Translations under genes and position numbers: made by a program
Part shown: positions 10,203 through 26,054 of the stretch, one piece after another
Position numbering within the stretch: the stretch's first letter is position 1
Layout of the letters: each line of letters begins with the position of its first letter
Assembly: GCF_007845675.1 (NCBI RefSeq)
Contig: NZ_VOBR01000014.1
Location: 62,001-126,000, forward strand
DNA: 64,000 nt
From: Lentzea tibetensis
GTDB lineage: Bacteria; Actinomycetota; Actinomycetes; Mycobacteriales; Pseudonocardiaceae
Direction: 5' to 3'
Notes under the pieces: model-generated
What the model was told of the DNA's origin: nothing
Databases searched by the model: none
The model's input: only the letters and a program-made list of their open reading frames with translations

Positions 10203-10237
10203 TCGAGGCAGGGCGCGCCGTTCCACTCGGGCAGGGC

Positions 10238-10275
10238 CCACGGCTGAGGAGACCCCCAGTGCTCCTCAGCCGTGG
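10238..10275. terminator. Strong hairpin terminator after the LCP gene
   Basis: Arms CCACGGCTGAGGAG (10238-10251) and CTCCTCAGCCGTGG (10262-10275) are a perfect 14-bp inverted repeat with a 10-base loop, 36 bases after the LCP stop. There is no T-run, as is usual in high-GC actinomycetes. The remaining 178 bases up to 10454 hold the presumed promoter and leader of the STAND gene, where I see no clear site. Confidence 0.75.
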
Positions 10276-10453
10276 AAGTTCTGCCCCCAGCGTGCGAGAT
10301 CATCTCGACCCTTTCGTCGATCACATCGGCACGTGCGGTCGAGCTTGTCAGCAGACATCGTTAGGGTGGGCCCCCGAAGTCAACTCCGGTGCCCGCAACC
10401 GCAGCTCAGGCGGCTCGCGCGGGTTTTCCGGACCGGACGGGCGTGGAGGCCGG

Positions 10454-13400
10454 ATGGGGCCGCGCGGGGTCTTCGCCGAGCGGTTCGCGCTGCTCTACGC
10501 GGAGGCGGGCGACCCGCCGCTGAAGAGGGTCACCGAGTCGGTCGCGCGTGCCCGCCGAACGGACGAGCAGGGCCGTCCGGTCCGGGTACCGGCGCAGCGG
10601 GTCAGCGACTGGCGGCGGGGCCGCAACGTGCCCGCCCGGTTCACCGCGCTGTCGGCCGTTCTCGAGGTCCTCATCGGCGAGGCGCGCAAGCGCCGCCCGC
10701 AGCCCGCGAGCACCGGGCTGTACGACCTGGACGCGTGGCGCTCGCTGTGGGAGGAGGCGCTCGCCAGCCCGGTCGGCGAGGCCGAGGAACCGCAGGACGA
10801 CTCCGGTGTCTGCCCCTATCGCGGCCTGGCCGCTTTCCGGTCCGAGGATTCGAACTGGTTCTTCGGACGTGAACGCAGCACGGCCGCGCTGCTCGATCGC
10901 ATCGAAGACCGTGGAATCACGATGCTCGTCGGCGCTTCGGGTGCCGGTAAATCGTCGTTGATGAAAGCCGGCCTGCTGCCCGCGTTGCAGAAGAAATCAA
11001 TTGTTCTCACGCCCGGAAACGATCCGTTGAAGGAGTTCGCGCTCCAGGTTCCCGAGCTGATCGAGACGCTGGAGAGGGCGGCGCTGCACGACGAGGTCGC
11101 CGAGTTCGCCGAGCGGGTGTGCGTCGCGGTCGGCGACCGGGTGGTGATCGTCGACCAGTTCGAGGAGGCGTTCACGCTCGGCGGCGACGAGGACCGGCTG
11201 CGGGTGTTCGTCAGCGCACTGCACGCGGCGGCCGAGCGGACGTCGGTCGTGCTCGGGGTGCGGGCGGACTTCTACGCGCGCTGCCTGGACTACCCGGAGC
11301 TGGCCGACGCGCTGCAGAACCGGCAGATGGTGCTCGGCCCGATGACGAGCGCCGAGCTGCGCGAGGCCGTGGCGAGCCCGGCGAAGGCGGCCGGGCTCCA
11401 GCTGGAACCGGGACTCGTCGAGCTGATGCTCCGGGACCTCGGCGCGCAGAACGGCAAGCGCCAGGAGGCCTACGACGCGGGAGCGCTCCCGCTGCTGTCG
11501 CACGCGCTGCTCGCGACGTGGCAGCGCAGGCAGGCCGGCAGGCTGACGACAGCCGGTTACCGCGCGACGGGCGGCATCCAGGGCGCGGTCGCCGCGACCG
11601 CCGAACGCGCGTGGGCCGACCTCGACCAGCCGGGCCAGCAGGCCGCGCGGTCGTTGCTGCTGCGCCTGGTCCGAGTCGGTGACGACACGCAGGACACCCG
11701 GCGCCGGTCGAGCCGCATCCGGCTGCTGGAGGCCGCTGGCAACCAGGCGGCGACCGAGACCGCGCTGGAGGTGCTGGCCCGTGCCCGGCTGATCACGCTC
11801 GACGCCGGCACCGTCGAGATCACCCACGAGGCGCTGCTGCACGCGTGGCCGCGGCTGCGCAGCTGGATCGACGAGGACCGCGCGGGCAACCTGCTGCGCC
11901 AGCGCGTCGAGGAGGACGCGGCGACGTGGGTCAAGCAGGAACGCGAGTCGTCGCTGCTCTACCGGGGCGCCCGGCTGGAGACCGCGAAGCCGGTGGCGAA
12001 GGAGGTCACAGCCAGCGCGCGTGAGTTCCTCGCCGCGTCGGAACGGCAGCGGCGCCGGACGGCGTGGATGCGGCGCGCGGCCGTGGCGCTGGTGGCCGTC
12101 TTCGCGCTGATCGCCGCGTCGGCCGCGGTGATCGCGGTGCGGCAGCGCAACGACGCGGTGTTCCGCCAGGTCGTCGCCGAGGCGAACCGGTTGCAGGAGC
12201 AGGACCCGTCGCTCGCCGCGCAGCTCGCGCTGGTGGCGTACCGGATGCGGCCGGACGACGCGGACGTGCGCGGGCTTCTCCTGTCCACGCAACAGGGTCC
12301 GCTCGCCGCGCCGCTGCTCGGGCACTCCGGCGCGGTGTACCTGACGTCGTTCAGCCCGGACCGCAGGACGCTCGCGACCGCCAGCTACGACAACACCGCG
12401 CGGCTGTGGGACGTGAGCGACAGCGCGCACCCGAGGCAGCTGGGCGCGCCGCTGGTCGGGCACCGCAGCTGGGTGAGCTCCGCGGTGTTCAACAACGACG
12501 GCACCGTCCTCGCGACGGCGGGCGACGACAAGACCGTGATCCTGTGGGACGTCCGCGACCGCGAGCACCCCCGGCGGATCGGCGACCCGATCGACGGCGG
12601 CAACGGCACGATCTACCTGGTCGAGTTCAGCCCCGACGGCAAGACCTTGGCCACCGCCAACGAGGACAAGACCGCGCGGCTGTGGGACGTGGCCGATCCG
12701 GAGCACCCGAAACCGCTCGGCGAACCGCTGCGCGGCCACACCGACCAGGTGCGGTCGATCGCGTTCAGCCCGGACGGCCGGACGCTCGCGACCGTCGGCG
12801 ACGACACGACGCTGAAGCTGTGGAACGTCGCGGACCACGCGCTGCTGAGCGACGTGCCGAGCGGGCACGTCGAAGGACTGCACACCGTCGCCTACAGCCC
12901 GGACGGCACGCTGGTCGCGACCGGCAGCGAGGACGGCACGATCCGGCTGTGGCGGGTGGGTGATCCGCGCGCACCGCGGCCGATTCCGTTGCCGCTGGCC
13001 GGGCACTCAGGTGGCGTGTGGTCGGTGAAGTTCAGCCCGGACGGCACGACGCTGGCTTCGGCCAACAGCGACAGCACCGTGCGGCTGTGGAACGTCTCGG
13101 ACCCCGAGCACGTGGCGACGCTCGGCAGTCCGCTGACGGCGCAGGCGAACGGGCTCTTCGCGGTCGGTTTCAGCCCGGACGGCCGCACGCTCGCGACCGG
13201 CAGCGAGGACAGCGTCGTGCGGCTGTGGCACCTGCCGGAGGGGCTGATGCTCGGCCACCGCGGGGGCGTCTCCGCACCCGCGTGGCGCGCCGACGGCGCG
13301 ATGATCGCGACCGGTTCGTCGGACCGGACCGTGCGGCTGTGGGACCCGGCGACCGGCAAGCAGATCGGTGCGCCGATGATCGGCCACGAGGGCGACGTCT

Positions 13401-14239
13401 GGCAGCTCACGTTCCGTCCGGACGGCGAGGTGCTCGCCACCGCGGGCGAGGACAAGACCGTGCGGCTGTGGGACGTCGGCTCCCGCGGCCCGCTCGGCCA
13501 GCCGCTGCGGCTCGGCACCCGGTACTCCTCGCCCATCGCGTTCAACCGGGACGGCGGGCTGCTCGCGACCGGCGACGACGACAAGTCCGTGCAGCTGTGG
13601 GACGCCCGCGACCCGGCGAAGCCGGTCAAGGTCGGCACGCCGCTCACCGGGCACGAGGGATACGTGAACTGGGCGGGCTTCAGCCCGGACGGCACGCTGC
13701 TCGCCACCGCGAGCGCGGACCAGACCGCGCGGCTGTGGGACGTGCGCGACCCGGCGAAACCGGTGCTGCGGCACGAGCTGACCGGCCACATCGGCCCGGT
13801 CAACCGCTCGGCGTTCAGCCCCGACGGCACGCTGCTCGCGACCTCCAGCGGTGACCACCGGATCTTCCTGTGGGACGTGGCGACGGGCAAGAAGGTCCGC
13901 TCGCTCGACGGGCACACCGAGGGCGTGAGCGCCGTGACGTTCAGTCCGGACGGCACCCGGCTGGCCAGTGGCAGCGGTGACGGCACCATCCGGGAGTGGG
14001 ACGTCGCGAGCGGCACGTCCGTCCCGATCACCGGGTACGTCGAGACGAGCTTCGAGACCGTGTTCAGCCCGCGCGCGAACGTGGTCGCGGCCAGCACCCG
14101 TGATCGCTCGGTGCGGCTGTGGTCGCTGGACGAGCAGGCCGCGATCAACCGGATCTGCGCGTCGACGCCCGGTGTCCTGACGGAACAAACGTGGGATGAA
14201 CATCTGCCTCAATTGGACTACCGGCCACCCTGCGCGTAG
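10454..14239 (+). CDS. nSTAND-type NTPase with C-terminal WD40 propeller
   Basis: This is a 1261-residue signalling NTPase. ATG 10454 follows GGAGG. Residues 1-80 form a helical DNA-binding-like region (VPAQRVSDWRRGRNVP resembles a helix-turn-helix). CPYRGLAAFRSEDSNWFFGR at 120-139 is the typical entry to the nSTAND1 domain. Walker A is GASGAGKSS (160-168) and Walker B VVIVDQFEE (about 230-238). A single transmembrane helix lies at about 538-560. From about 610 to the end there are roughly 14 WD40 repeats ending RLWDV or close variants. The ending LTEQTWDEHLPQLDYRPPC is typical of actinomycete members. Likely a membrane-tethered sensor; ligand unknown. Confidence 0.9.
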   Translation: MGPRGVFAERFALLYAEAGDPPLKRVTESVARARRTDEQGRPVRVPAQRVSDWRRGRNVPARFTALSAVLEVLIGEARKRRPQPASTGLYDLDAWRSLWEEALASPVGEAEEPQDDSGVCPYRGLAAFRSEDSNWFFGRERSTAALLDRIEDRGITMLVGASGAGKSSLMKAGLLPALQKKSIVLTPGNDPLKEFALQVPELIETLERAALHDEVAEFAERVCVAVGDRVVIVDQFEEAFTLGGDEDRLRVFVSALHAAAERTSVVLGVRADFYARCLDYPELADALQNRQMVLGPMTSAELREAVASPAKAAGLQLEPGLVELMLRDLGAQNGKRQEAYDAGALPLLSHALLATWQRRQAGRLTTAGYRATGGIQGAVAATAERAWADLDQPGQQAARSLLLRLVRVGDDTQDTRRRSSRIRLLEAAGNQAATETALEVLARARLITLDAGTVEITHEALLHAWPRLRSWIDEDRAGNLLRQRVEEDAATWVKQERESSLLYRGARLETAKPVAKEVTASAREFLAASERQRRRTAWMRRAAVALVAVFALIAASAAVIAVRQRNDAVFRQVVAEANRLQEQDPSLAAQLALVAYRMRPDDADVRGLLLSTQQGPLAAPLLGHSGAVYLTSFSPDRRTLATASYDNTARLWDVSDSAHPRQLGAPLVGHRSWVSSAVFNNDGTVLATAGDDKTVILWDVRDREHPRRIGDPIDGGNGTIYLVEFSPDGKTLATANEDKTARLWDVADPEHPKPLGEPLRGHTDQVRSIAFSPDGRTLATVGDDTTLKLWNVADHALLSDVPSGHVEGLHTVAYSPDGTLVATGSEDGTIRLWRVGDPRAPRPIPLPLAGHSGGVWSVKFSPDGTTLASANSDSTVRLWNVSDPEHVATLGSPLTAQANGLFAVGFSPDGRTLATGSEDSVVRLWHLPEGLMLGHRGGVSAPAWRADGAMIATGSSDRTVRLWDPATGKQIGAPMIGHEGDVWQLTFRPDGEVLATAGEDKTVRLWDVGSRGPLGQPLRLGTRYSSPIAFNRDGGLLATGDDDKSVQLWDARDPAKPVKVGTPLTGHEGYVNWAGFSPDGTLLATASADQTARLWDVRDPAKPVLRHELTGHIGPVNRSAFSPDGTLLATSSGDHRIFLWDVATGKKVRSLDGHTEGVSAVTFSPDGTRLASGSGDGTIREWDVASGTSVPITGYVETSFETVFSPRANVVAASTRDRSVRLWSLDEQAAINRICASTPGVLTEQTWDEHLPQLDYRPPCA

Positions 14240-14252
14240 CTATCGTCACTCC

Positions 14253-14747
14253 ATGCGCATTCTCGCCAGGGTCGGCAGTCTGAACGCGGTGGTCACGGTC
14301 CTCACCGGGATCAGCGCGCTGTACATGCTCCTCGTGGTGTTCGGCAACGTGACGGACTACGGCTCGAACGAGGCCTTCGTCAAGCACGTCCTCGCGATGG
14401 ACACGACGTTCAAGTCGGACAAGACGATGTGGCGGGCGATCACCAGCCCGGCCGTCGTCACGGTCGTCTACGTTGCGATCATCGCGTGGGAGGCGCTGAC
14501 GGCGCTCGTGCTCACCGCGGGCTTCGTCGCCTGGCTGCGCGGCCGCGCGTCAGCCGCGTCGCTGTCGTCGACCGGCTGGCTGATGCAGGTGCTGCTGTTC
14601 CTGGGCGGGTTCATCACCGTCGGCGGCGAGTGGTTCGTGATGTGGCAGTCCGAGCAGTGGAACGGCCTGCAGGCCGCGCTGCAGAACGTGATCATCGCGG
14701 CGTTCGGCCTGGTGCTCGTGCACCTCAGCAGGAAACAGGCCAGCTGA
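14253..14747 (+). CDS. DUF2165-family small integral membrane protein
   Basis: This is a 164-residue predicted four-helix membrane protein. ATG 14253 gives MRILARVGSLNAVVTVLTGI; helices run at about 8-30, 68-95, 108-128 and 140-158. NVTDYGSNEAFVKHVLAMDT and the conserved GGEWFVMWQSEQWNG motif between the last helices match the DUF2165 family, whose function is unknown. It begins 13 bases after the STAND gene and may be co-transcribed with it. The 3' end overlaps the convergent GGDEF/EAL gene by 23 bases. Confidence 0.8.
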   Translation: MRILARVGSLNAVVTVLTGISALYMLLVVFGNVTDYGSNEAFVKHVLAMDTTFKSDKTMWRAITSPAVVTVVYVAIIAWEALTALVLTAGFVAWLRGRASAASLSSTGWLMQVLLFLGGFITVGGEWFVMWQSEQWNGLQAALQNVIIAAFGLVLVHLSRKQAS

Positions 14748-16824
14748 CGCCCGGCTCGGGGCAGTAGAGAGGACCGACGCAGGCGTCCGCGCCGATCTCG
14801 CGCCACCAGGACGCCTGCTCCTCGGTCTCCACCGGGTCGATCACGACGAGCCCACCGGCCGCGTGCACGAACGTCACGAGGTCCTCGAGTACGTGCGTGA
14901 TCAGCTCGTCCGGCCTGATGGTGCGGCCCTTGATCCGGACGGCCTTCACGCCGAGCGACCGCACGAGCTCGACCTCGGTGGACGAGCCGCTGAAGTCGCG
15001 GGCGCCGATGGCGCAGCCGAGCTCGGCGATCATGTCGAGGTTGTCGATGGCCTCGCCGTTGTCCGAGCCGAGCACGTGCACCGGGAAGCCGAGCAGCAGC
15101 CGGGACGCGGGCAGCCCGGTGTCGTCGAGCACGCGGCGCACGTCGCGCACGAGGTCCGGGTTGTTCGCCATGCTCTCGGTGAGGCAGACGGCGAGCATCC
15201 CGGTGTGCGACACGGCTTCCGCGGCAGCCTGGCGCAGCACCCACTCACCGAGCGGCAGCATCAGGCCGGTGTGCTCGGCCATCGACACGCACTTGTCGTG
15301 GGTGATGACGCCCGCGTCGCGGTGCTCCCAGTGCAGCTCGGCCTCGATGCACACAGCCGACTGGTCGCCGAGTGCCACGACCGGCTGGTAGACGACGGAG
15401 ATCTCGCCGTTCTCCCACGCGCCCGGCATGACGGCGGCGAGCCCGAACTCCTTCTGCTCCTGCTTGTCGGCGGTCGCGTCGTGCAGGCCCCACTGCCTGC
15501 GGCCGCTGCGCTTGGCGCGGCGCAACGTCATGTCGGACGCGCGCAGGATCTCGGCGGGCGTCGTGTTGACCGGCAGCCGGGGCAGCACGCCGACGGACGC
15601 GGAGACCGCGACGCCGTGACCTTCGAGGAACACCGGCTCGGAGAGCTCGGCCTCGATGCGGCTGATCGTGGCGTTGACGTCCGGCGTCGTCGGCGCGTTC
15701 TCCACCAGCACGGCGAACTCGTCGCCCTCCAGCCGCGCGACCATCGCCTTCTCCTCGGCGAAGACCGTGGAGAGGCGTTCGGCGACGAGCCGCAGCACGC
15801 GGTCGCCGATCTGCCTGCCGAGGCCGTCGGTGATCACCGAGAACGCGTCGAGGTCGAGGTGGTACAGCGTCACGCCGTGCTCGGGCTCGGCGTGCATCAA
15901 CGACTCCATGCGAGTCGTGAGGTACTGGCGGTTCGGCAGACCGGTCAGCGGGTCGTGCAGCGACTGGTACTGGAGCTGGCCGCCGAGCAGGGTGAGCTGG
16001 CTGTCGTCGTCGATCATCAGGACGTACTTGTTCGGCACGTCGTCGACGTCGCGCTGCATCGTCGCCGCGAGCACGACGCGGACGGACTCGCCGTCGCCGT
16101 CGAGCATGCGCGGGCGTTCCTCGGCGCGGTGCTTGCCGCCCTCCACGAGCTCCGTGAGAGCGATTTCCACGAGCGGCAGGTCCGGTTCCACGACGAGGTC
16201 CGCGAGCGTGAGCCCCTCGAACTCCTCGACCTCACGGCGCAGGATCCTGCCGAGGGCCGCGTTCGCGCGCTGGACCGTGCCGTCGAGGTCCGTGATCGCG
16301 ATGCCGCTGGCCGAGTACGTGAAGAGCTCCTCGAACTGCTGCTCGCTCACCTTCAGGTTGAGCTGCACCGACTTGTTCGCGCGGACCAGCGCCTGGCTCA
16401 CGGACTCCTGCTGTTCGAGCACGAACGCCTGCATCTTGTCCGTGTACCCGGCCGCGACGGCGCCGATCACCAGCCCGACGCGCTCGGGCAGGTTGGCGAT
16501 GGCGGCGATTTCCGGTTGGTACGGAAGGTACTTCGACAGCACGTCGATCGTCGCGCGCAGGCTCGTCGCGCCGACGCAGTGCAGTTCGACCAGGCGCGTG
16601 CCGACCGTCGCTGCCGTCTCCGGGTCACCCTGCATCGCGTCGAACAGGCGTCCCACCAACGGCTGAAGCTGCTTGGCGAGCTTGTTGGTCGAGAAGGGCA
16701 CGTACGCGGTCGCGCTGAGGAGGAGAGCCCACTCCCGCGCAAGGTCATCCCGCCCGCGAGGGCCGGCACTTCCCGCGTCGTCCTGGCTCGGCAAAACGAT
16801 CCACCTGACCTGCTCGACGAGCAA
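14725..16824 (-). CDS. PAS-GGDEF-EAL protein with degenerate catalytic motifs
   Basis: This is a 699-residue multidomain protein: helical N-terminal region (25-150), PAS sensor (about 160-280, EELFTYSASGIAITDLDG), GGDEF domain (285-445) and EAL domain (460-699). The diguanylate cyclase signature is EGDEF (366-370) rather than GGDEF. The phosphodiesterase signature is EAELHW (494-499) rather than EALLRW, and the DDFG metal loop is RDFSG. The EAL part is therefore probably inactive or a c-di-GMP sensor, and cyclase activity is doubtful. The only usable start is TTG 16824, so the N terminus is less certain. It stands alone and is convergent with the DUF2165 gene. Confidence 0.85.
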   Translation of the reverse strand: MLVEQVRWIVLPSQDDAGSAGPRGRDDLAREWALLLSATAYVPFSTNKLAKQLQPLVGRLFDAMQGDPETAATVGTRLVELHCVGATSLRATIDVLSKYLPYQPEIAAIANLPERVGLVIGAVAAGYTDKMQAFVLEQQESVSQALVRANKSVQLNLKVSEQQFEELFTYSASGIAITDLDGTVQRANAALGRILRREVEEFEGLTLADLVVEPDLPLVEIALTELVEGGKHRAEERPRMLDGDGESVRVVLAATMQRDVDDVPNKYVLMIDDDSQLTLLGGQLQYQSLHDPLTGLPNRQYLTTRMESLMHAEPEHGVTLYHLDLDAFSVITDGLGRQIGDRVLRLVAERLSTVFAEEKAMVARLEGDEFAVLVENAPTTPDVNATISRIEAELSEPVFLEGHGVAVSASVGVLPRLPVNTTPAEILRASDMTLRRAKRSGRRQWGLHDATADKQEQKEFGLAAVMPGAWENGEISVVYQPVVALGDQSAVCIEAELHWEHRDAGVITHDKCVSMAEHTGLMLPLGEWVLRQAAAEAVSHTGMLAVCLTESMANNPDLVRDVRRVLDDTGLPASRLLLGFPVHVLGSDNGEAIDNLDMIAELGCAIGARDFSGSSTEVELVRSLGVKAVRIKGRTIRPDELITHVLEDLVTFVHAAGGLVVIDPVETEEQASWWREIGADACVGPLYCPEPGVSWPVSC

Positions 16825-16948
16825 CGGTTCGGAAGCCTACCGCCAGCAAACCGCAGGCTCCTACCGGTCGCCCCCATTCGCTCTAATGGGCGACTGAGGG
16901 GATTCAGAGCGTGAGGTCCGCAGACGGCCGTGCCTCGGGTGAACCTGC

Positions 16949-19276
16949 TCAGCTTCCAACAATCAAGCGTAGCTGAGCGAGCAGGTCACTTCGACTCGTG
17001 CTGCCGAGCCGCTGCCGCATCCTGGCCATGTGGTGCTCGACCGTTTTGGCCGAGATGAACAGCCGGTCGCCGACCTGCTTGTAGGTCATTCCCTCCACGA
17101 CGAGCTCCGCGACCTCGCGTTCCCGTTCGCTGAGCTTGCCGGTGTCCTCCACCACCACGGGTACTTCGCTGTCGTGCGCACGACGCGTCGTGACGGCACG
17201 GCCCTGGAGCAGGCGCGCGCAGTCCAGCAGCCGCACCATGGCCTGCCGGTCGGACGTCCGGATCGCGGCCTGCCCGGCGAGCCGCGCCGCGTCCCACCAC
17301 TGCCCCGCCGCGTGCAGGCCGCGCGCGGCCTCCTCGACCTGGTCCGCGTCGACCTTGCCCGCGACGACGTCCAGCCAGCTCTCCGCGGCGGACGAGATGA
17401 TCGCGCAGTACCTGGTGTGGCCGCGGTTCTCGGCCAGCGCGGCGGCGTGCTCCTCGGCGCTCTCGTGGTTCTCGTCGATGATCGCCGCGTGCAGCAGGCT
17501 CCAGTGCAGCGTCGTCGCCCAGAGCGGCGGGTTCCCCAGCTGCCGCAGCAGTGCGCGCGCCTCGTTGAGGTGCGGGCGCAGCCGGTCCTGGTCGCGCAGC
17601 CGGGCCGCGGCGGCCGCGAACTCGCCGAGCGGGAGGAAGCTGAACAGGTCGACCGGGTGCCGCAGCACGGCCTCGCACGCCTGCTCCCACGTGCGGCGCA
17701 ACGTGGCGAGATCGCTGTTGCGCCTGGCGATCCCGACCTCCAGCGCCACCGCGAAGATCCAGTCGCGCGGCTCGAACACGCCGCGCACGGACATCAGGTA
17801 CTCGCGCGCCACGGTCAGGTTGCCGCGCAGCATGTGCAGCCACGCCTGGAGAAGCCGGTGCCGCACGGACATCAGCACGCCGCCGGTTCCGGTCTCGACC
17901 GCGCGTTCCAGCACGCTCTCCGCGACACCCGGCTCACCGCAGTGCACGGCGACGAGCGCCGCCAGCGAGGCGGGGCTGTCCGGCAGCAACACGGTGGCGC
18001 CGGCCGGTTCCAGCAGACCGGACGCTCTGACCAAAGTGGACAGAGCGGCGGTCTCCGCGCCGGAGACGGACTGCTGGATGCCGCGCAGCATCAGGTCCGC
18101 CGCGCCGCCGAGCATCGTCGGCGGCTGCTTGGGGACCTCGTCGGTGCGGTGCCCGGTGCCGATCATCCCGATGCCCGCGAACGCCTGCGCGTACGGCGTG
18201 GCCGCCCAGCGGAAGAGCTCGGTGCTGCGGGCCAGCTGGCCGCGGTGCGCGAGCGCGACGGCGGCGACCTCGGCCGCGGTGCGCCGGTGCGGCGTCTCGG
18301 CACCGCTGATCACCTGGTCGGACAGGCGGAGCGCGGCGTCGAGGTCACCGGCCATCGCGGACGCCGTCGCCCAGCGGGCCGCGAGCTCCGGCTCCGGCGT
18401 GCCGCCACCGGCGGACGCGCTGAGCAGCTTCGCGGCCAGCGCCGCGTCGACCGGCAGCGCCTCGCGTGCCGCGGCGCGCAGCACGTTCGCGTGCACGCCA
18501 CCGGTGTCCAGCACCGGTTTGATCAGGTCGAGCACCGGGCCGCCGCGTTCCAGCTGCAGCTCGGCGAGCCGCTGGCGCACGGCGATGCGCCGCTCGGTGC
18601 GGCTGAGCGTGGCGACCGCCCGTGCCGCGATCGGGTGCAGCGAGCCGTCCTCCGCGAGCAGCCCGGTGGCGCGGCCCGCGTCGATGACGTCGCCGACCGC
18701 GTCGAAGTCGGTGTTCAGCAGTGCGCTGAGCAGGTCGAGCCGCAGGCCCACCCCGGCTTCGGCGGCGAGCAGGAACTTCTGCAGGTCGGCGTCCAGCCAC
18801 TCGAGGTCGTGCCGGAACGCCGCGACCGCGTCCGCCGACACCTCGGTGGTCGCGCCGAGCAGGTCGACGAACCTCGGCACGCCACCGGTCTGCGCGTGCA
18901 CGAAGTCCACGACGCCGCGGTTGGCGTGCGGCAGGTGCTCGCGCACCTGGTCCTTGGTGAACGGGTGCAGCGTCAGCACGGTGCAGCCGCGGGCCAGCGC
19001 CGACAGCGCCTGCCTGCGCGGCCACGGCCGGTACGCGACGACGAGCCTCGGCTCGGTCAGCAGCTCGGCGAGCGTCCCGTCGTCGAGCAGGTGCGCGTCG
19101 TCGACGACCTTCACGTCAGCGGCGTCGATCTCGCCGAGCAGGGCTGTCTTGCCGTACCCACCGGGCGCCACCACGGCGACGCGCAGCCGCGCGCCGGGAT
19201 CCGTGAACGCGTCCAGCGTGCGTCGCGTGCGCTCGTCCAGCACGAGCCGCGACCGGGTACCTGCTCGACTGCTCAA
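16949..19276 (-). CDS. iniR: IniR-like LuxR-family ATPase regulator
   Basis: This is a 775-residue large ATP-binding LuxR-type regulator. A P-loop GGYGKTALL lies at about 39-47, with VKVVDDAHLLDD as the likely Walker B; a long helical repeat middle follows, and the C terminus carries a LuxR helix-turn-helix (LSEREREVAELVVEGMTYKQ then ISAKTVEHHMARMRQRLG). Its position beside iniB/iniA/iniC homologues matches mycobacterial IniR, which controls iniBAC. The TTG start (19274-19276) overlaps the TGA of the hsp70-like gene (TTGA), so the two proteins are translationally coupled. The ligand of the ATPase module is not known; in the family it is thought to sense a cell-wall signal. Confidence 0.82.
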   Translation of the reverse strand: MSSRAGTRSRLVLDERTRRTLDAFTDPGARLRVAVVAPGGYGKTALLGEIDAADVKVVDDAHLLDDGTLAELLTEPRLVVAYRPWPRRQALSALARGCTVLTLHPFTKDQVREHLPHANRGVVDFVHAQTGGVPRFVDLLGATTEVSADAVAAFRHDLEWLDADLQKFLLAAEAGVGLRLDLLSALLNTDFDAVGDVIDAGRATGLLAEDGSLHPIAARAVATLSRTERRIAVRQRLAELQLERGGPVLDLIKPVLDTGGVHANVLRAAAREALPVDAALAAKLLSASAGGGTPEPELAARWATASAMAGDLDAALRLSDQVISGAETPHRRTAAEVAAVALAHRGQLARSTELFRWAATPYAQAFAGIGMIGTGHRTDEVPKQPPTMLGGAADLMLRGIQQSVSGAETAALSTLVRASGLLEPAGATVLLPDSPASLAALVAVHCGEPGVAESVLERAVETGTGGVLMSVRHRLLQAWLHMLRGNLTVAREYLMSVRGVFEPRDWIFAVALEVGIARRNSDLATLRRTWEQACEAVLRHPVDLFSFLPLGEFAAAAARLRDQDRLRPHLNEARALLRQLGNPPLWATTLHWSLLHAAIIDENHESAEEHAAALAENRGHTRYCAIISSAAESWLDVVAGKVDADQVEEAARGLHAAGQWWDAARLAGQAAIRTSDRQAMVRLLDCARLLQGRAVTTRRAHDSEVPVVVEDTGKLSEREREVAELVVEGMTYKQVGDRLFISAKTVEHHMARMRQRLGSTSRSDLLAQLRLIVGS

Positions 19277-20493
19277 CGGCTGTCCTCGTCATCGTCGTCG
19301 TCATGGGTGCTCCGGCGGGCGCCGGCGGGCTTGAGTCCGCGCACCACCCGCTTCACCGAGCTGCGCTCGGGCAGGTCCAGCGGGGTGATGTCCACCGGCG
19401 GACGCGGTGGTGGTGCGGTGATCTCCTGGTCGTGCGTGACGATCTCACCGACCGGGAAGCGCAGCGAGAGGTCGTCCGAGCGGGCCATCACCGAGGTCGT
19501 CGGAGGCTCCGGTTCTTCCTCCGGGCCTTCGACGAGCAGGCGCGCGGCGAGCGCGGCACCCTTGACCACGGACGTCTCCGGCGCGGCCTCGGCGAGGATC
19601 CGGCAGTCCAGCGCGGCGGCGAGTGCGTCCGGGATCGCGGGCACCCGGACCGCGCCGCCGACGAGCAGCACCGCGTCCAGCTTCGTGTCGCCGACGGTGC
19701 GCACGAGCGTCTGCACCGAGTGCTCGACGGCCGGGCGGATCTCCTCGGCGAACTCGGCCCTGGTGATCGTGACGCCGCGGATGTCGACGTGCGGCGCGTG
19801 CGACAGCACGGTCTTCGCCTTGCCGCACTCGAGTGCGGACACCTCGTTCGCGCCCTTGCCGAGCTTGCCCCTGATGAGCGTGCCGAGCGCGTCGTCGAAG
19901 TCGGTGCCCGCGTGGTGGTCGACGGTGTCGACGCCGCTCAGCACCTCGAACGTGCGGCCGGGCGTGCGGCGCACCAGCGAGCAGCTGAACGCGTGGCTGC
20001 CCATCGAGTAGACGGCGAGCGTCGAGCCGACCGGCACCCGGTCACGCGCCGCGTGATTCTCCGCGGCGGCGACCGGCTCGGGCAGCAGCGTGGCGTTGTC
20101 GATGCCGACCTGGCGCAGGGCCTGGTGCAGGAGCCCACGCCGATAGGGACCCCACCCGACCGGGTGAGCGACGGCTACGTGCTGTGCTGGCACGCCCTCG
20201 CGCGCCATGACCTGCCCGGCGATCCACATGATCATGAGCGCGGTCAGTTCCTCGGCGGAACAGGTCTCCGGGCCGAGCACGAGCGGCACCGCGTCGCCCA
20301 CCCGCCTGCTGAAGCCCCACGCGGTCCAGCCGCCGGGGTCGACGTCGCCGACCGCGAACGACCCCGCGTCCGTGAGCTGCAACAACGAGGGTGCGACGAC
20401 CGCGATCTCGGCTTCCCGCGTGCTGTCGCCGAGACGGCAGACAGCAGCGGCGGTGTGGGTTGTCCCCACGTCGACTCCGAGTACGTACGGCAC
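19273..20493 (-). CDS. Hsp70-family ATPase without substrate-binding domain
   Basis: This is a 406-residue actin-fold ATPase. The phosphate-1 loop is VLGVDVGTTHTAAAV at the N terminus and the adenosine motif is VLLVGGAVRVPAIPDAL at about 280. The phosphate-2 region reads LAVYSMGSHAFSCSL in place of the usual DLGGGT, so nucleotide hydrolysis may differ from DnaK. After about residue 325 there is only an acidic and proline-rich tail (DDDDDED near the end) and no beta-sandwich peptide-binding domain. The GTG start lies behind GAGGATGGGCA. It is the first gene of a two-gene operon with iniR and divergent from iniB. A regulatory partner role for IniR is inferred from coupling. Confidence 0.8.
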   Translation of the reverse strand: MPYVLGVDVGTTHTAAAVCRLGDSTREAEIAVVAPSLLQLTDAGSFAVGDVDPGGWTAWGFSRRVGDAVPLVLGPETCSAEELTALMIMWIAGQVMAREGVPAQHVAVAHPVGWGPYRRGLLHQALRQVGIDNATLLPEPVAAAENHAARDRVPVGSTLAVYSMGSHAFSCSLVRRTPGRTFEVLSGVDTVDHHAGTDFDDALGTLIRGKLGKGANEVSALECGKAKTVLSHAPHVDIRGVTITRAEFAEEIRPAVEHSVQTLVRTVGDTKLDAVLLVGGAVRVPAIPDALAAALDCRILAEAAPETSVVKGAALAARLLVEGPEEEPEPPTTSVMARSDDLSLRFPVGEIVTHDQEITAPPPRPPVDITPLDLPERSSVKRVVRGLKPAGARRSTHDDDDDEDSR

Positions 20494-20575
20494 TGCCCAT
20501 CCTCACCTGTTCGCACTAGTGCCCTGTTGCTACACGGGTGAAACGCGTGCGCTCAAGCTGTGCCCCTAATCCCCT

Positions 20576-20633
20576 AAGGGGTCAACGAGCGTCACCCCTT
20601 CAGGGAACGGGGATCTACTGGGCGTGATCCCCG
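20576..20633. promoter_or_regulatory. Two dyads in the divergent hsp70-iniR / iniBAC control region
   Basis: The 212-base gap between the two starts (20493 and 20706) contains two inverted repeats. Dyad 1: AAGGGGT (20576-20582) and ACCCCTT (20594-20600), 11-base spacer. Dyad 2: CGGGGATC (20608-20615) and GATCCCCG (20626-20633), 10-base spacer. Both sit 70-130 bases before the iniB start. They are good candidates for binding by IniR or another regulator of both arms; no core promoter is clear enough to mark. Confidence 0.5.
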
Positions 20634-20705
20634 ATGTTCGGGTGCCGGCGTCCCAATACGGTCGGTCACAACCCATTTGATACGTGCCCCACCAGGAGAT
20701 TTCTC

Positions 20706-21641
20706 GTGACCACGTCGCCCAGCACGATCCACGACTTCGTCCTCAACCTGCTGACGGACCCGTCCGCCAAGGCCGCGTTCGACATCGACGCGCAGGGCGC
20801 GCTCGAGCAGGCCGGCCTGAGCGACATCAGCGCGGTGGACGTGCAGGAGGTCATCCCGCTGGTCCTCGACACGCTGCCCGCCGCCAACGGCCTGCCCGCC
20901 GTTGACGGCCTCGCGCTCGACGGCTTCGCGTTCGAGGGTCTGCCGGAGACGGTTCTCGAGTCGGGCACGGCCGGCGCCATCAGCCAGCTGCAGGCGGTCG
21001 CCTCGCAGCTGACCTCGTCGGGCCTGTCCCTCGGTGACCTCAACACCTCCTCCGCCGGCGTCCTCGCGGCCGACGAGCAGGGCCTGACCGTGTGGGGTGG
21101 CAACGAGACCCTCGGCACCTACGGCGCCGGCTCGGCCACCATCGCCGGTGACTTCTCGTTCGTCGACGACGTCTTCGGCATCACGTCCACGGCCACCACG
21201 CCGGTCGCGGACACCACGCTGGGCACCCTCGACACCGCGACCGCCACGGTCGACTCGACCGCGCACACCGCGACGTCGCTGGTCCCCGGCGCCGACTCGC
21301 TGCTCGGCACCGTGAACCTGGGTGCGGTCGACACCGTCAACGGCATCGTCCACAGCGCCGTCGGCGCGCTGGGCGGCGGCGACGCGAGCGTCACCTCCGC
21401 GCTGGACGTCACCAGCCTCGGCCAGAACGCCAACGGCAACGTCGAGATCTACAGCGACGACACCGTCGGCAACCTGGTCGGCACCGCGACCGGCGTCGTG
21501 GACCAGGCCGGTGTGGGCGGCGTCCTCGACACCGCGAACGGCGTCGCGCACTCGGCCGGTGCCGGCAGCGTCGTGAGCAACGTCACCGACGTGGCGGGCG
21601 ACGCAGTCGACGGCCTCGGCGTGACGGACCTGCTGTTCTGA
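20706..21641 (+). CDS. iniB: IniB-like protein
   Basis: This is a 311-residue protein. GTG 20706 is set by AGGAG seven bases upstream. Residues 7-55 (TIHDFVLNLLTDPSAKAAFD then GALEQAGLSDISAVDVQEVI) match the IniB N-terminal domain. The remainder is low-complexity, rich in Ala/Gly/Thr/Val/Asp with repeating VDTVNGIVHSAVG-like segments and no cysteine. Mycobacterial IniB is a glycine/alanine-rich, cell-wall-stress-induced protein of unknown function. It heads the rightward ini operon, but a strong terminator follows before iniA, so iniB may be made in excess over the GTPases. Confidence 0.82.
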   Translation: MTTSPSTIHDFVLNLLTDPSAKAAFDIDAQGALEQAGLSDISAVDVQEVIPLVLDTLPAANGLPAVDGLALDGFAFEGLPETVLESGTAGAISQLQAVASQLTSSGLSLGDLNTSSAGVLAADEQGLTVWGGNETLGTYGAGSATIAGDFSFVDDVFGITSTATTPVADTTLGTLDTATATVDSTAHTATSLVPGADSLLGTVNLGAVDTVNGIVHSAVGALGGGDASVTSALDVTSLGQNANGNVEIYSDDTVGNLVGTATGVVDQAGVGGVLDTANGVAHSAGAGSVVSNVTDVAGDAVDGLGVTDLLF

Positions 21642-21657
21642 GCCATCTGGCCGCGCC

Positions 21658-21695
21658 ACGAACCGGCTCCGCCCCTGAGGGCGGGGCCGGTTCGT
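21658..21695 (+). terminator. Hairpin terminator between iniB and iniA homologues
   Basis: Arms at 21658-21674 and 21679-21695 (ACGAACCGGCTCCGCCC and its partner) pair over 17 positions with one G-U type mismatch and a CTGA loop. It begins 17 bases after the iniB stop. It should stop or attenuate transcription into iniA, giving differential expression. Confidence 0.75.
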
Positions 21696-21742
21696 CGTAT
21701 CCGGTCTTCACCCAACGGGGTGAACACGGCACACTGAGTCGG

Positions 21743-23557
21743 GTGATGGCACCGCCCTGGCTCGACGTTCTCGACGAGACGATCGGGGCCTGCGCCACGC
21801 ACCGGAGGCCCGATCTGGAGGCCCGGCTGCGCGAGAAGCGGGCTCAGCAAGTCGACCCGAAGCTGCGCGTACTGGTGATCGGCGAGTCCAAACAGGGCAA
21901 GAGCCAGCTGGTGAACGCGCTGATCAACGCACCCGTCTGCGCCGTCGGCGACGACATCACCACCACCGTGCCGACCTTCGTTCAGCACTCGGAGACCCCG
22001 TCCGCGGCGCTCGTGCGCAACGCGTCGTCCCGCCGTTCGATCATGAACGCGCCGACCGAGCGCGTGGCCGTGCCGATCGAGCAGGTCACCAAACAGGTGA
22101 GCGCCATTCACTCGGGCGAGCTAGTCCGGGCCGAGATCGGCATCCCGCGGGCGCTGCTCACCAGCGGCCTCGTGCTGATCGACACCCCCGGCATCGGCGA
22201 CACCCGGTCCGCGAACACCGCGAGCACGTTCGCCACGGTGCTGCAGGCGGACGCGGTGCTGATGGTGTCCGACGCGACCGGCGAGCTGACCTCGGCCGAG
22301 CTGGCGCTGCTCAAGAAGGTCATGGCGGCCTGCCCCAACGTGACCGTGGTGATCACCAAGACCGACCTGTGCCCGCAGTGGCGCACGGTGGTCGAGCGCA
22401 ACCGCTCCCACCTGGCGCGGGCGGGCATCCCGGCGAAGCTGCTGCCGGTGTCCGCGACGCTGCGGCTGCGCGCGGCGAAGACCGGCGACCAGGTGCTGAA
22501 CACCGAGTCCGGCTTCCCCGACCTGCTCGCGTGCCTGCAGCGGGACATCGTCGCGAGCGCCGACCTGCTGGCGCGGCGCGCGGTGTCCGTGGTCGCGTCG
22601 TCGGTGATCAGCCAGCTGGTGACGCCGTTGCGCGAGGAGCTGACGACGCACGACTCGTCGCACACGGCCGCGACGATCTCGACGTTGCAGGAGGCGCAGC
22701 GCCGCGTCGACGAGCTGCGCAGGCGGTCGGCGCGCTGGCAGAACGTGCTGAACGACGAGATGGCCGATCTGGTCTCCGACGTCGAGTACGACCTGCGCGA
22801 CCGCACCCGCAAGATCCTGCGCGAGGTCGACAAGACGTTCGACGAGGCCGACCCTGCGCAGGGCTGGGAGCAGTTCGAGCAGTGGCTCGAGGACAACCTG
22901 AACGACGCGGCGACGACCAACTTCGCGTGGCTGATGGAACGCGCCGAGTGGGTGGCGGAGAAGGTCGCGCGGAACTTCCCGGTCTACCGCGAGGACATCC
23001 TGCCCGGCTCGATCCTGCCGGACGACGTGCTCGACCCGGTCGGCAAGCTGGACAAGCCGAAGATCGAGCCGTTCACGATCACGCAGAAGGTGTTCACCGG
23101 CCTGCGCGGGTCCTACGGCGGCGTGCTGATGTTCGGTCTCGTCACGTCGCTCGCCGGCATGCCGCTGATCAACGTGATCTCGCTGGGCGCGGGCGCCCTG
23201 TTCGGCGGCAAGACGATCAAGGACGAGAGCGACGCCAGGCTGAAGCGGCGTCAGGCCGCGGCGAAGGCGGCCGCGCAACGGCACGTCGACGACTTCTTCA
23301 TCAAGTTCAGCAAGGACTGCCGCGACGCCGGCCGCTACATCCAGCGCTCGCTGCGCAACCACTTCGCCTCGCTCGCCGAGGAGATGCAGGAGACCCTGCT
23401 GGAGTCCGCCCGCAGCGCCAAGCGCGCCGTGCAGGACGACGCGTCCCAGCGCGACCAGCGCCAGCGCGAGGCGCGCCGCGAGCTCGACAAGCTGGTGACG
23501 TTGTACAAGCGGGTGCAGGCGCTCGGTGGCGGGGCCGCTATGGAGTTGAGCGCATGA
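21743..23557 (+). CDS. iniA: IniA-like dynamin-family GTPase
   Basis: This is a 604-residue bacterial dynamin-like protein. G1 is GESKQGKS (47-54), G3 DTPGIG (147-152) and G4 TKTD (205-208). A long helical stalk follows. A hydrophobic paddle at about 455-485 (GVLMFGLVTSLAGMPLINVI) would insert in membrane, and the C-terminal helices return to the GTPase. In Mycobacterium, IniA is induced by cell-wall drugs and its homologue remodels membrane. The start is GTG 21743 or the adjacent ATG 21746; no strong ribosome site separates them. The stop overlaps the iniC start (ATGA). Confidence 0.88.
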   Translation: MMAPPWLDVLDETIGACATHRRPDLEARLREKRAQQVDPKLRVLVIGESKQGKSQLVNALINAPVCAVGDDITTTVPTFVQHSETPSAALVRNASSRRSIMNAPTERVAVPIEQVTKQVSAIHSGELVRAEIGIPRALLTSGLVLIDTPGIGDTRSANTASTFATVLQADAVLMVSDATGELTSAELALLKKVMAACPNVTVVITKTDLCPQWRTVVERNRSHLARAGIPAKLLPVSATLRLRAAKTGDQVLNTESGFPDLLACLQRDIVASADLLARRAVSVVASSVISQLVTPLREELTTHDSSHTAATISTLQEAQRRVDELRRRSARWQNVLNDEMADLVSDVEYDLRDRTRKILREVDKTFDEADPAQGWEQFEQWLEDNLNDAATTNFAWLMERAEWVAEKVARNFPVYREDILPGSILPDDVLDPVGKLDKPKIEPFTITQKVFTGLRGSYGGVLMFGLVTSLAGMPLINVISLGAGALFGGKTIKDESDARLKRRQAAAKAAAQRHVDDFFIKFSKDCRDAGRYIQRSLRNHFASLAEEMQETLLESARSAKRAVQDDASQRDQRQREARRELDKLVTLYKRVQALGGGAAMELSA

Positions 23558-24945
23558 AAATCGACCACGTCACCTGGTCGATCCTGCAAGAAGCTTTGGC
23601 CGTGTACCGCGACAGTCCGCGCGCTTTCGGGTGGCTGCGCTCGCACGTCGAGCGCTTCACCGAGCCGGTGCGGGTGGCCGTCGCCGGCCAGCCGGGCATC
23701 GGCAAGTCGACGCTGGCCAACGCGCTGATCGGCGAGTCCTTCGCGCCCGCACCCACGTTCTCCTGGTACCGCAACGGTTCCGCCGCGCACGCGCAGGTGT
23801 TCAGCGGCGGCCGCTTCGCGGAGGCGCCGGTGGTGCGGCGGGGTGGCCGGATGGCCGTCGACGCCGGGTCGTGGGACACCGTCGACCGCGTGGTCGTCGA
23901 CTGGCCGTCCCGCTCGCTGCGCGACTTCGTGCTGATCGACACCCCCGCGTCCGCCGCGCCGGAGCAGATCTTCGCCGACGCCGACGCGGTCGTGTACCTG
24001 ATGCGCCACCTGAAGGACGACGACCTGCAGTTCCTGCGCTCGGCGCACGACCACCCCATCGCCCGCGTCGCCGCGGTGAACACGATCGGCGTGCTCGCGC
24101 GGGCCGACGAGATCGGCGGCGGCCGCATCGACGCGCTGTCGTCGGCGAAGCAGATCGCCCGCCGCTACCGGCGTGACGTGCAGGTGCAACCGTTGTGCCA
24201 GAACGTGGTCGCGTGCGCGGGACTCATCGCGGTGGCCGCGCGCACGATGCGCGAGGACGAGTTCCAGGCGTTGCGCGCACTCGCCGCGCTGGGCCGCGAG
24301 GAGCTGGAGGACCACCTGCTGTCGGCGGACCGGTTCGTCGGCACGGCGTTCCCGCTGGACCTGGATCCCGCGGTGCGGCAGGGGTTGCTGGAGCGGTTCG
24401 GGCTGTTCGGCGTGCGGCTGTGCTGCGCGCTGGTGCGCCAGGGGTTCGACACGACGGTGAAGCTGACCGGCCAGCTGGTGCAGCGCAGCGGCTTGGGCGA
24501 GCTGCGCGACTCGATCGCCATCCACCTGGTGGAACGGCGCGAGGTGCTGAAGGCGCGGTCCGCCTTGCTGGCGTTGGACGTCGTGCTGCGCATGGAACCC
24601 CGGCCCGGTGCGCGCAAGCTGATGGCCGACCTGGAGCGCGCGGTGGCCTCCGCGCACGACTTCCGCGAGCTGCGGCTGGTGGCGGCGTTGCAGGGCGGCA
24701 GGACGAAGCTGCCGCCCGAGCTGGAGACCGAGGCCATGCGCCTGGTCGGCGCCGAGGGCACGACTTCCTTGGCGCGGCTGGGTTTCGACTACGACGCCAC
24801 GCCCGCGGAGCAGCGTTCGGTGCTGCTCGACGCGCTGGCCCGCTGGCAGGCCCAGGCCACCGACCCGCACCTCGGCGGCGACCACCGCCGTGCCGCACAG
24901 ATCGTCGTCCGCTCCTGCGAAGGCCTGCTGACCGGCCTGATCTAG
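23554..24945 (+). CDS. iniC: IniC-like dynamin-family GTPase
   Basis: This is a 463-residue partner GTPase. G1 is AGQPGIGKST (44-53) and G3 LIDTPASA. The G4 position is LARADE, not the canonical TKxD, as expected for the IniC side of the pair. It lacks the long hydrophobic paddle of IniA. The ATG overlaps the IniA stop by four bases, giving coupled 1:1 synthesis and suggesting a hetero-oligomer. The stop overlaps the convergent hydrolase-fold gene by three bases. Confidence 0.85.
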   Translation: MKIDHVTWSILQEALAVYRDSPRAFGWLRSHVERFTEPVRVAVAGQPGIGKSTLANALIGESFAPAPTFSWYRNGSAAHAQVFSGGRFAEAPVVRRGGRMAVDAGSWDTVDRVVVDWPSRSLRDFVLIDTPASAAPEQIFADADAVVYLMRHLKDDDLQFLRSAHDHPIARVAAVNTIGVLARADEIGGGRIDALSSAKQIARRYRRDVQVQPLCQNVVACAGLIAVAARTMREDEFQALRALAALGREELEDHLLSADRFVGTAFPLDLDPAVRQGLLERFGLFGVRLCCALVRQGFDTTVKLTGQLVQRSGLGELRDSIAIHLVERREVLKARSALLALDVVLRMEPRPGARKLMADLERAVASAHDFRELRLVAALQGGRTKLPPELETEAMRLVGAEGTTSLARLGFDYDATPAEQRSVLLDALARWQAQATDPHLGGDHRRAAQIVVRSCEGLLTGLI

Positions 24946-25418
24946 AGGATGCGGTCGACGAAGTCGCGGATCGCGTTCACGGCGTCCTTCGGGTCCAGCA
25001 GGCCCGGCGCGATGTGCTCCTCGAACGCCATGCCGCGGATGCGGTCCGTGCCCGCACGGGTGTCGGAGATCGGCACGATCTCGTCGGCCTCGCCGTGCAG
25101 CCACAACGTCGGCAGCGCGCCGAGGTGCGGGCCGAAGTTGACCTCGTCGATCAGGTCGGCCAACTCGTCGGACGCGCCGTCCCACATGCCGAGCACCGGC
25201 GACACGAGCACCAGTGCGGCGAGCTGCGCGCCGTGGTGCTGCGCGTACCTGGCGGCGACCGGCGCGCCGGTGAAGTGTCCGATGAGGACGACCGGCGCGT
25301 CCGCCGCACCCACGACGGCGTCCACGTCGTCAGTCACGACGACGTGGACGCCCGCGGACTCGAGCGCCTCGGCGAAGGCGCTGTGCACGAGGACGGCGAG
25401 CCACCGGTCCGATGTCAT
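24942..25418 (-). CDS. Alpha/beta-hydrolase-fold protein lacking the nucleophile
   Basis: This is a 158-residue small alpha/beta-hydrolase-like protein, similar in size and layout to RBBP9/YdeN-type hydrolases. The nucleophile elbow reads IGHFTGAPVAARY; the Ser expected in GHSxG is Phe. The acid loop LWLHGEADEIVP and a candidate His (FEEHIAPG) remain. It should be catalytically dead or act otherwise. The ATG abuts the TAG of the upstream DUF4232 lipoprotein gene, so both are one operon. Confidence 0.75.
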   Translation of the reverse strand: MTSDRWLAVLVHSAFAEALESAGVHVVVTDDVDAVVGAADAPVVLIGHFTGAPVAARYAQHHGAQLAALVLVSPVLGMWDGASDELADLIDEVNFGPHLGALPTLWLHGEADEIVPISDTRAGTDRIRGMAFEEHIAPGLLDPKDAVNAIRDFVDRIL

Positions 25419-25982
25419 CTAGGCAGGGTAGAACGCGCTGATCTCGATTCGACCGCCGCCGCACACCGGGCCGTAGTCCCAGGTGAGGCTCATCGGCTTG
25501 GTGTCGTCCGGTGGAATCGCGGCCGCCTTGCGCGCCTCGGGCTGGCACGGCTGGTCGACCGGCTCAGCGCCCGCGGGCACGACGGACCAGTGCAGGTTGG
25601 CCGCGGCCTTGCCGCTGGGCGCCAGCTCGAGCGGGGTCGGACCGGGGGTCGCGACGCGCTCCAGCTTCGTCGGGACCGCGCTGTCGTCCTCGGCGAGCAG
25701 CTGGAGTCCGCTGTAGCCGTTCAAAGTGCACGGTGCGGCGCCGCTGTTCGTGACGAACAGCTTGCCGTACCTGTTGCCCGCACCGGAGTCCGTCGGGGTG
25801 ATCTCACCTTTGAGGACGGCCGCGTCGCACCGGCTGACGACCGGCGCGGCGGGGGAAGTAGAGGTCGTCGGCGGCAACGAGCTCACCGAGAGCGAACCCG
25901 CGGCGGGCTGAGCTCTCTCACCGCACGCCGCCGTCGCCAGCGCAAACACAACCAGTCCGCATGCGAGCACCCGTCGAGTCAT
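25419..25982 (-). CDS. DUF4232-domain lipoprotein
   Basis: This is a 187-residue predicted lipoprotein. ATG 25982 is preceded by a textbook AGGAGGTGCGTC. The signal peptide ends in a lipobox, LATAAC, with acylated Cys near residue 20. A Ser/Thr/Pro linker leads to a DUF4232 domain: RCDAAVLKGEI, NRYGKLFVTNSGAAPCTLNG, and CGGGRIEISAFY at the end, with four cysteines likely in two disulfides. Exposed on the outer face of the membrane. Function of the family is unknown. Confidence 0.85.
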   Translation of the reverse strand: MTRRVLACGLVVFALATAACGERAQPAAGSLSVSSLPPTTSTSPAAPVVSRCDAAVLKGEITPTDSGAGNRYGKLFVTNSGAAPCTLNGYSGLQLLAEDDSAVPTKLERVATPGPTPLELAPSGKAAANLHWSVVPAGAEPVDQPCQPEARKAAAIPPDDTKPMSLTWDYGPVCGGGRIEISAFYPA

Positions 25983-26054
25983 GACGCACCTCCTATCAGG
26001 AGGACGTAGCCACCGACGCGCGAGTTGAACCACGCGGGGCGAAGTTCACCGGAT

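Follow-up and report, generated by a model that had tools for sequence, protein, structure and literature searches.

An Hsp70-Fold Protein Encoded next to IniR: A Possible Gate for the Envelope-Stress Module of a Lentzea-Type Actinomycete

In mycobacteria, the STAND/LuxR-type activator IniR is encoded near iniB, iniA and iniC in an iniR/iniB*/iniBAC cluster. IniB carries a characteristic N-terminal domain, and IniA and IniC are dynamin-like. The parts of the paper naming IniR on which this account draws (Boot 2017, PMC5760070) compare the domains of IniR with those of MalT, mention a dnaK-like gene next to iniR of Mycobacterium smegmatis, and report that trehalose induces the iniBAC operon, with binding of trehalose to IniR left to future work. 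Here we describe a related cluster in the 9.36-Mb genome of a Lentzea-type soil actinomycete, located on a 64,000-nt stretch that we call the window. The protein set of the mycobacterial cluster recurs in this locus. As far as those parts of PMC5760070 go, the two clusters differ in that the window has an hsp70 gene between iniB and iniR that overlaps iniR, shows no iniB* copy at the locus, codes for an IniR homologue scoring under the equivalog cut-off, and has an Hsp70-fold protein without a membrane helix. By analogy with the control of MalT by MalK, we propose that a membrane-linked Hsp70-fold partner may gate the STAND activator IniR within a complete five-part envelope-stress module, a reading to which we assign a probability of roughly 45%.

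The MalT/MalK pair of E. coli is a second point of reference. Like IniR, MalT is a STAND-type nucleoside triphosphatase (NTPase) with a helical sensor and a LuxR-type DNA-binding domain; unlike in a true MalT, only the helix-turn-helix part of IniR matches the MalT model, and MalK is an ATP-binding cassette ATPase whereas the partner in the window has an Hsp70/actin fold. In MalT boxes a GGGGA core recurs as a direct repeat, and the predicted box of the present locus, reading TTAGGGGA or similar, resembles them. DnaK and HscA share the nucleotide-binding domain with the window protein, which differs from them in lacking the substrate-binding domain and the residues K70, D194 and T199.

The open reading frames of the window reveal a five-gene module in which hsp70 and an iniR-like gene on the minus strand face iniB, iniA and iniC on the plus strand, with hsp70 between iniR and iniBAC (Table 1). 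The gene content, strands, and the TTGA and ATGA overlaps agree with the preliminary description of this DNA, which had recognized a complete ini-type locus. We call the regulator IniR-like because its match to NF038181 scores below the NCBI equivalog cut-off of 750, though it is nearly full length (residues 53-773, 382.5 bits, E 4.6e-114). The P-loop residues G39, G42 and K43 are invariant in 42 aligned sequences, and a GerE domain (LuxR-type helix-turn-helix) occupies residues 715-765. By analogy with published IniR, the middle of the protein may be a helical sensor part. The iniB product matches IniB_NTERM (NF038175) with 59.7 bits, above the cut-off of 40. Its most likely start is the GTG at 20706 rather than the ATG at 20634, because the IniB domain begins only at residue 31 of the longer frame; the ATG also falls inside the promoter region. 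The IniA protein aligns with the solved structure of IniA over residues 8-584 (E 9.8e-107), matches Dynamin_N as well, and is 84-86% identical to IniA of the named Lentzea loci. The ATG start of iniC at 23554 shares the ATGA with the end of iniA.

Table 1. Features of the ini locus and positions in the window
Feature	Position	Strand	Basis or remark
iniR-like gene, 775 aa	16949..19276	-	STAND-type NTPase, P-loop, C-terminal LuxR/GerE domain
TTGA stop/start overlap coupling hsp70 to iniR	19273..19276	-	sequence
Hsp70-fold gene, 406 aa	19273..20493	-	PF00012 match, alignment to the genome's own DnaK, hydropathy
Codons of the C-terminal PPPRPPVDITPLDLP motif region, about residues 361-375 of the Hsp70-fold protein	19369..19413	-	alignment of 57 sequences
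Tandem CCCCTAA box CCCCTAATCCCCTA, predicted IniR operator	20563..20576	+	between the divergent genes
Predicted iniB promoter core: CCCCGATG, 20 bp, TACGGT	20629..20662	+	conserved spacing
iniB-like gene, 311 aa	20706..21641	+	GTG start behind AGGAG; N-terminal IniB domain
Hairpin, 17-bp stem, 4-nt loop	21658..21695	+	between iniB and iniA
iniA-like gene, 604 aa, dynamin-like GTPase	21743..23557	+	Dynamin_N; PDB 6j72
iniC-like gene, 463 aa, second dynamin-like GTPase	23554..24945	+	MMR_HSR1 P-loop; iniC homologues behind iniA across the census

The case for a partnership between the Hsp70-fold protein and IniR starts from their genes. In the window, the TTG start of the iniR-like frame lies within the hsp70 stop. 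A 4-bp overlap of the form xTGA, with varying start codons, is possible in 83 of 145 distinct pairs across families, and the iniR start lies at most 30 bp from the hsp70 stop in 127 of them; in this count the start nearest to the stop was chosen every time, which favours overlap, and real starts may differ. A search of 298 genomes of the order (threshold E 1e-20) returned an IniR match in 134, with 25 of these over the NF038181 cut-off. Regions from 94 of the 134 genomes together with the window provided 100 IniR genes. Directly upstream of 83 of these and on the same strand lies hsp70, which accords with the conservation in related genera on which the preliminary description had staked its case, as well as with the coupling it had claimed. 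Eleven further IniR genes have hsp70 elsewhere in the cluster, making 94 in total; two of the eleven are IniR fragments in L065, with hsp70 downstream. Five (L053, L054, L061, L086 and L112) have no hsp70 in the stretch examined, and the L072 region breaks off at the end of its contig. By comparison, no more than 23 of 180 related loci were found to carry any one of the window's other flanking genes, although some of the stretches compared stop short of the flank; the adjacency of hsp70 and iniR is thus more than chance.

The preliminary description had regarded the Hsp70 arm as foreign to the textbook mycobacterial layout. Our counts contradict this view: the arm is the usual layout of the order and not an oddity. 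Genus g28, which we take for Mycobacterium because its IniR scores exceed the curated cut-off, has an Hsp70-fold gene in 16 of 16 clusters examined, 11 times beside iniR and 5 times past iniC, in addition to the published M. smegmatis gene mentioned above (excerpts of PMC5760070). The idea that mycobacteria without hsp70 beside iniR have lost it was discarded, since the five such g28 loci carry the gene past iniC. A search with IniA gave a similar picture: among the best 80 of at least 567 confirmed matches, taken as 80 named loci, Hsp70 accompanies 74 and IniR 73. Six of these loci lack Hsp70, but in five of the six the sequence ends so near iniA or iniB that the gene could not have been seen; L170, which lacks IniR, lies at a contig end. 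Beyond the order, 296 genomes of the class gave 11 matches from other orders, and all 10 that were examined have Hsp70 in the cluster: five times it adjoins iniR, and five times it lies across the cluster from it.

The Hsp70-fold protein itself is unlikely to act as Hsp70 chaperones do. The window copy matches PF00012 with 52.1 bits in the ATPase part only, the match stopping at profile position 376 of 599, and among solved structures it comes closest to a DnaK chain (E 1.5e-11). The catalytic residues of DnaK are D8, K70, E171, D194 and T199. Aligned to the genome's own DnaK, the window protein has D, S, E, S and A at these positions. Among 148 distinct copies from Mycobacteriales, 143 retain at most three of the five and only 5 retain four or five, even with serine accepted in place of T199. 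A clear Hsp70 nucleotide-binding domain could point to a dedicated chaperone that folds or assembles IniR or the dynamins by the Hsp70 ATPase cycle, as could the presence of all five catalytic residues in L031, L047, L052, L059, L074 and L129 and in 7 of the 10 copies from other orders. Nevertheless, we regard this function as improbable: no substrate-binding domain was found in the copies scanned with Pfam (the window's and five others), K70 is retained in only 4 of the 148 distinct copies, and the tail and helix described below are not chaperone-like.

In a quickly built tree of 91 copies with two DnaKs as the root, the six intact copies fall near the base and the remaining 85 rows group in one clade (support 97); the search was short and several branches are long, so the root is to be read with care. 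The simplest reading of this history would be an ATPase ancestor whose site was lost later. The loss of catalytic residues might also be expected of a gene in decay that persists only through its linkage to iniR, and mean column identity is lower for Hsp70 than for IniR (40% vs 51%, in alignments that differ in make-up). This explanation is the least probable of those considered here. The copies used maintain a long open frame, the fold glycine G342 is present in 155 of 155 aligned rows, and the overlap with iniR recurs across families. Furthermore, 57 aligned relatives share a strictly conserved PxRP motif near the C-terminus: P362, R364 and P365 do not vary, and conservation of P371, L372 and P375 is at least 90%.

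We also compared the ATPase sites of the two partners. By regular expression, IniR lacks a P-loop in 7 of the 14 loci whose Hsp70 is intact and in 16 of the 158 whose Hsp70 is degenerate, the latter count falling to 10 of 158 once 6 regex misses are removed; these counts ignore kinship. A strict rule by which one partner always retains its ATPase site was rejected, since both sites are lost in L067, L068, L083 and L235. A plasmid origin of hsp70 was rejected as well: 22 plasmid records match it weakly, none covering over 80% of it.

The preliminary description had the Hsp70-fold protein sense the signal or relay it to IniR. This may be so, and the receptor-like build of many relatives favours a sensing role. 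By a simple hydropathy rule rather than a trained predictor, a membrane helix is predicted behind the Hsp70 domain in 53 of 91 copies. Lysine and arginine are commoner on the domain side of this helix in 52 of the 53 and equally frequent on both sides in one. At least 100 residues follow the helix in 34 copies; the proline, threonine and serine content of these extensions is 22-72%, and at least 30% in 32 of them. In L241, a beta-propeller takes the place of the outside tail. The same rule predicts no transmembrane helix in the window copy. Most helix-less copies of the window's family and of family f13 end in a sequence like PPxRPPVxITPLxLP followed by a basic tail, and tail-anchored relatives have the same proline motif just before their tail helix.

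The L241 protein (L241:1437-3899), from outside the order, combines an Hsp70 domain, a predicted membrane helix and a beta-propeller in one chain beside iniA and iniC. Mycobacterial PknD is a transmembrane receptor whose catalytic domain lies in the cytoplasm and whose propeller lies outside. Receptors of this type resemble L241 in having a cytoplasmic domain, a single predicted helix and a beta-propeller; they differ from it in carrying a kinase instead of an Hsp70 fold, and from the window copy also in the helix, which the latter lacks.

A second complete ini locus occurs in the window's own genome (L031, G000:C38:60000-79900). The Hsp70 encoded there retains its ATPase site and has both a membrane helix and a tail rich in Pro and Thr; the accompanying IniR-like frame, which also contains a run of X, shows no P-loop, and the same pair is found in a genome of the same genus (L129). 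Three g28 genomes encode further such Hsp70-fold proteins away from ini genes (L223, L224, L225, L226, L230 and L231), possibly kin of M. tuberculosis Rv0312 and Rv2264c. A literature search on these two homologues returned no paper.

From these elements the following mechanism can be sketched. IniR, as a MalT-like STAND activator, would occupy the tandem CCCCTAA (TTAGGGG) boxes and switch on iniB-iniA-iniC, with the hairpin behind iniB allowing more IniB than IniA or IniC, and IniA and IniC would remodel or repair the membrane. The Hsp70-fold protein would serve not as a chaperone but as a membrane-linked partner of IniR, co-translated with it, which restrains IniR and releases it upon envelope damage, like MalK with MalT. 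Many relatives would combine a nucleotide-binding domain on the cytoplasmic side with one membrane helix and, outside the cell, a tail rich in Pro and Thr with which the protein could sense the wall; the window lineage retains the cytoplasmic domain and the proline motif and lacks the helix. A broader version is possible but rather unlikely: transmembrane Hsp70-fold receptors, pseudo-ATPases in most Mycobacteriales, might form the input arm of ini across Actinomycetes, the tail or propeller reading the wall and the Hsp70 domain holding and releasing IniR, with the window lineage working helix-free through its PRPPV motif and basic tail. A conserved iniR-adjacent partner, receptor-like in many relatives, is a direct candidate for the route from wall damage to IniR, and a possible sensor acting on this switch. 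Such a role would also be an unusual use of the Hsp70 fold, given that the substrate-binding domain is missing and that most copies in this order have lost catalytic residues.

Several observations weigh against gating of IniR by the Hsp70-fold protein. Contact between the two proteins, inhibition and release of IniR, and the function in the window's organism are inferred, and the receptor picture is borrowed from relatives because the window Hsp70 has no membrane helix. The pseudo-ATPase state is not a property of the whole family, given the intact sites in other orders. Published IniR of M. marinum and M. tuberculosis responds to drugs, and both organisms lie outside this Hsp70 survey. The position of hsp70 also varies. 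It lies beyond iniB, with iniR relocated, in L047, L049, L051/L242 and L059, past iniC in L100, L102, L103, L104 and L105 (all g28), and away from iniR in L232-L234, L236 and L241 of other orders. Three IniR-IniB pairs with a single CCCCTA box (L053, L054 and L112) have neither hsp70 nor iniA or iniC in the stretch examined. Finally, L165:1-2453 (Micromonospora deserti) has iniB-iniA-iniC, yet the 2.4 kb ahead of its IniB domain contain no Hsp70 gene and no IniR gene, which makes it a real exception at that place.

The rearrangements, and the absences in the three IniR-IniB pairs, fit an effector role equally well. In the main rival explanation, the Hsp70-fold protein would be a scaffold acting at the membrane together with IniB and the two dynamin-like proteins IniA and IniC, without taking part directly in regulation. 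Such a scaffold could explain why hsp70 stays beside iniB or iniC where iniR sits elsewhere in the cluster, why it lies past iniC in 5 of 16 g28 loci, and why the three loci without iniA and iniC are also without hsp70; the predicted membrane helix would place the protein where dynamins act. However, in most loci of the order hsp70 adjoins and often overlaps iniR, outside the iniB-iniA-iniC transcript, and in L237-L240 of other orders the two genes are adjacent even though iniB comes next on the same strand. We consider the scaffold somewhat less likely than gating of IniR by its Hsp70-fold neighbour.

Literature searches returned no paper on a link between iniR or iniBAC and Hsp70, or on a transmembrane Hsp70 of such a kind. 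The absence of a substrate-binding domain, the loss of ATPase residues and the membrane helix with an outside tail in an Hsp70-fold partner were not found in print. The association of Hsp70 with IniR has already been mentioned there; what the present analysis adds is a build like that of a receptor, an ATPase site lost in this order, the occurrence of the module beyond the order, and the predicted operator.

The divergent region between hsp70 and iniB contains what may be this operator. The box CCCCTAA occurs in 133 of 140 distinct divergent regions, compared with 4.6 of 147 in shuffles, and within the 64-kb window it is confined to the divergent region. CCCCGATG occurs in 107 of the 140 (4.9 of 147 in shuffles), and CCCCTAANCCCCTA is found at two places in the genome, the ini locus and C20:104759 (L222). 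A spacing of 8 bp between copies of the box is frequent (60 cases). Measured from the last CCCCTA, CCCGATG most often lies 34, 37, 47-48 or 58-59 bp away, and in 16 of 118 distinct regions the distance falls outside 34-60 bp; the main groups differ by about one DNA turn, as in helical phasing. Of the 118 distinct regions examined for the hexamer TA[CG]NNT, it was found in 88, and in 87 of these it follows CCCGATG at a distance of 20 or 21 bp. These box and spacing counts overstate the evidence because related sequences are not independent. Five g28 loci have the same boxes before iniB* and before iniB; L086 has no CCCCTAA-type boxes in its divergent region, and the loci found at class level have the box in some cases only. 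No sigma-70 consensus was found in 20400-21800. We infer that IniR binds the CCCCTAA boxes. In M. tuberculosis, IniR bound directly upstream of iniBAC, and the section concerned gives no motif (Boot 2017, PMC5760070); a literature search on the operator returned an unrelated paper only. The predicted operator and promoter provide a means to seek IniR targets in other genomes. Open frames were listed around the second CCCCTAANCCCCTA site, L222 (G000:C20:104759).

The preliminary description placed a 17-bp terminator between iniB and iniA and expected IniB to be made in excess. The hairpin with its 17-bp stem is real, and the 104-nt gap folds at z -5.06; neither this hairpin nor any other site in 20400-21800 has the T-run of a terminator. 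Among 138 distinct iniB-iniA gaps, the best 60-nt hairpin beats all ten of its own shuffles in 131, with medians of -40.2 vs -25.4 kcal/mol in the undeduplicated set. A threshold of -25 kcal/mol was abandoned: 158 of 160 gaps pass it, but so do 735 of 1380 shuffles. The hairpin is probably an attenuator or a 3' stabiliser. An internal brake on the operon is thus plausible, and IniB may well be made in excess over IniA and IniC; according to Boot 2017 (PMC5760070), the RNA sequencing of that study might favour a high amount of IniB.

Further searches concerned the wider role and surroundings of the locus. Rfam at gathering scores detected no RNA in 16000-26000. With PADLOC models, IniA resembles LeoBC (80.1 bits), IniR matches one model through its helix-turn-helix and IniC one weakly (E 0.00046); no model was matched by Hsp70 or IniB. 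An anti-phage role was rejected, as PADLOC gave no complete known system. Downstream of iniR and on the same strand lies a PAS-GGDEF-EAL gene (window 14725-16824), present in 20 of 180 related loci; a cyclic di-GMP receptor is reported to repress iniBAC in BCG (PMC13413693). A large nSTAND1-WD40 protein is encoded at 10178-14239 of the window and near the locus in 20 of 180 related loci.

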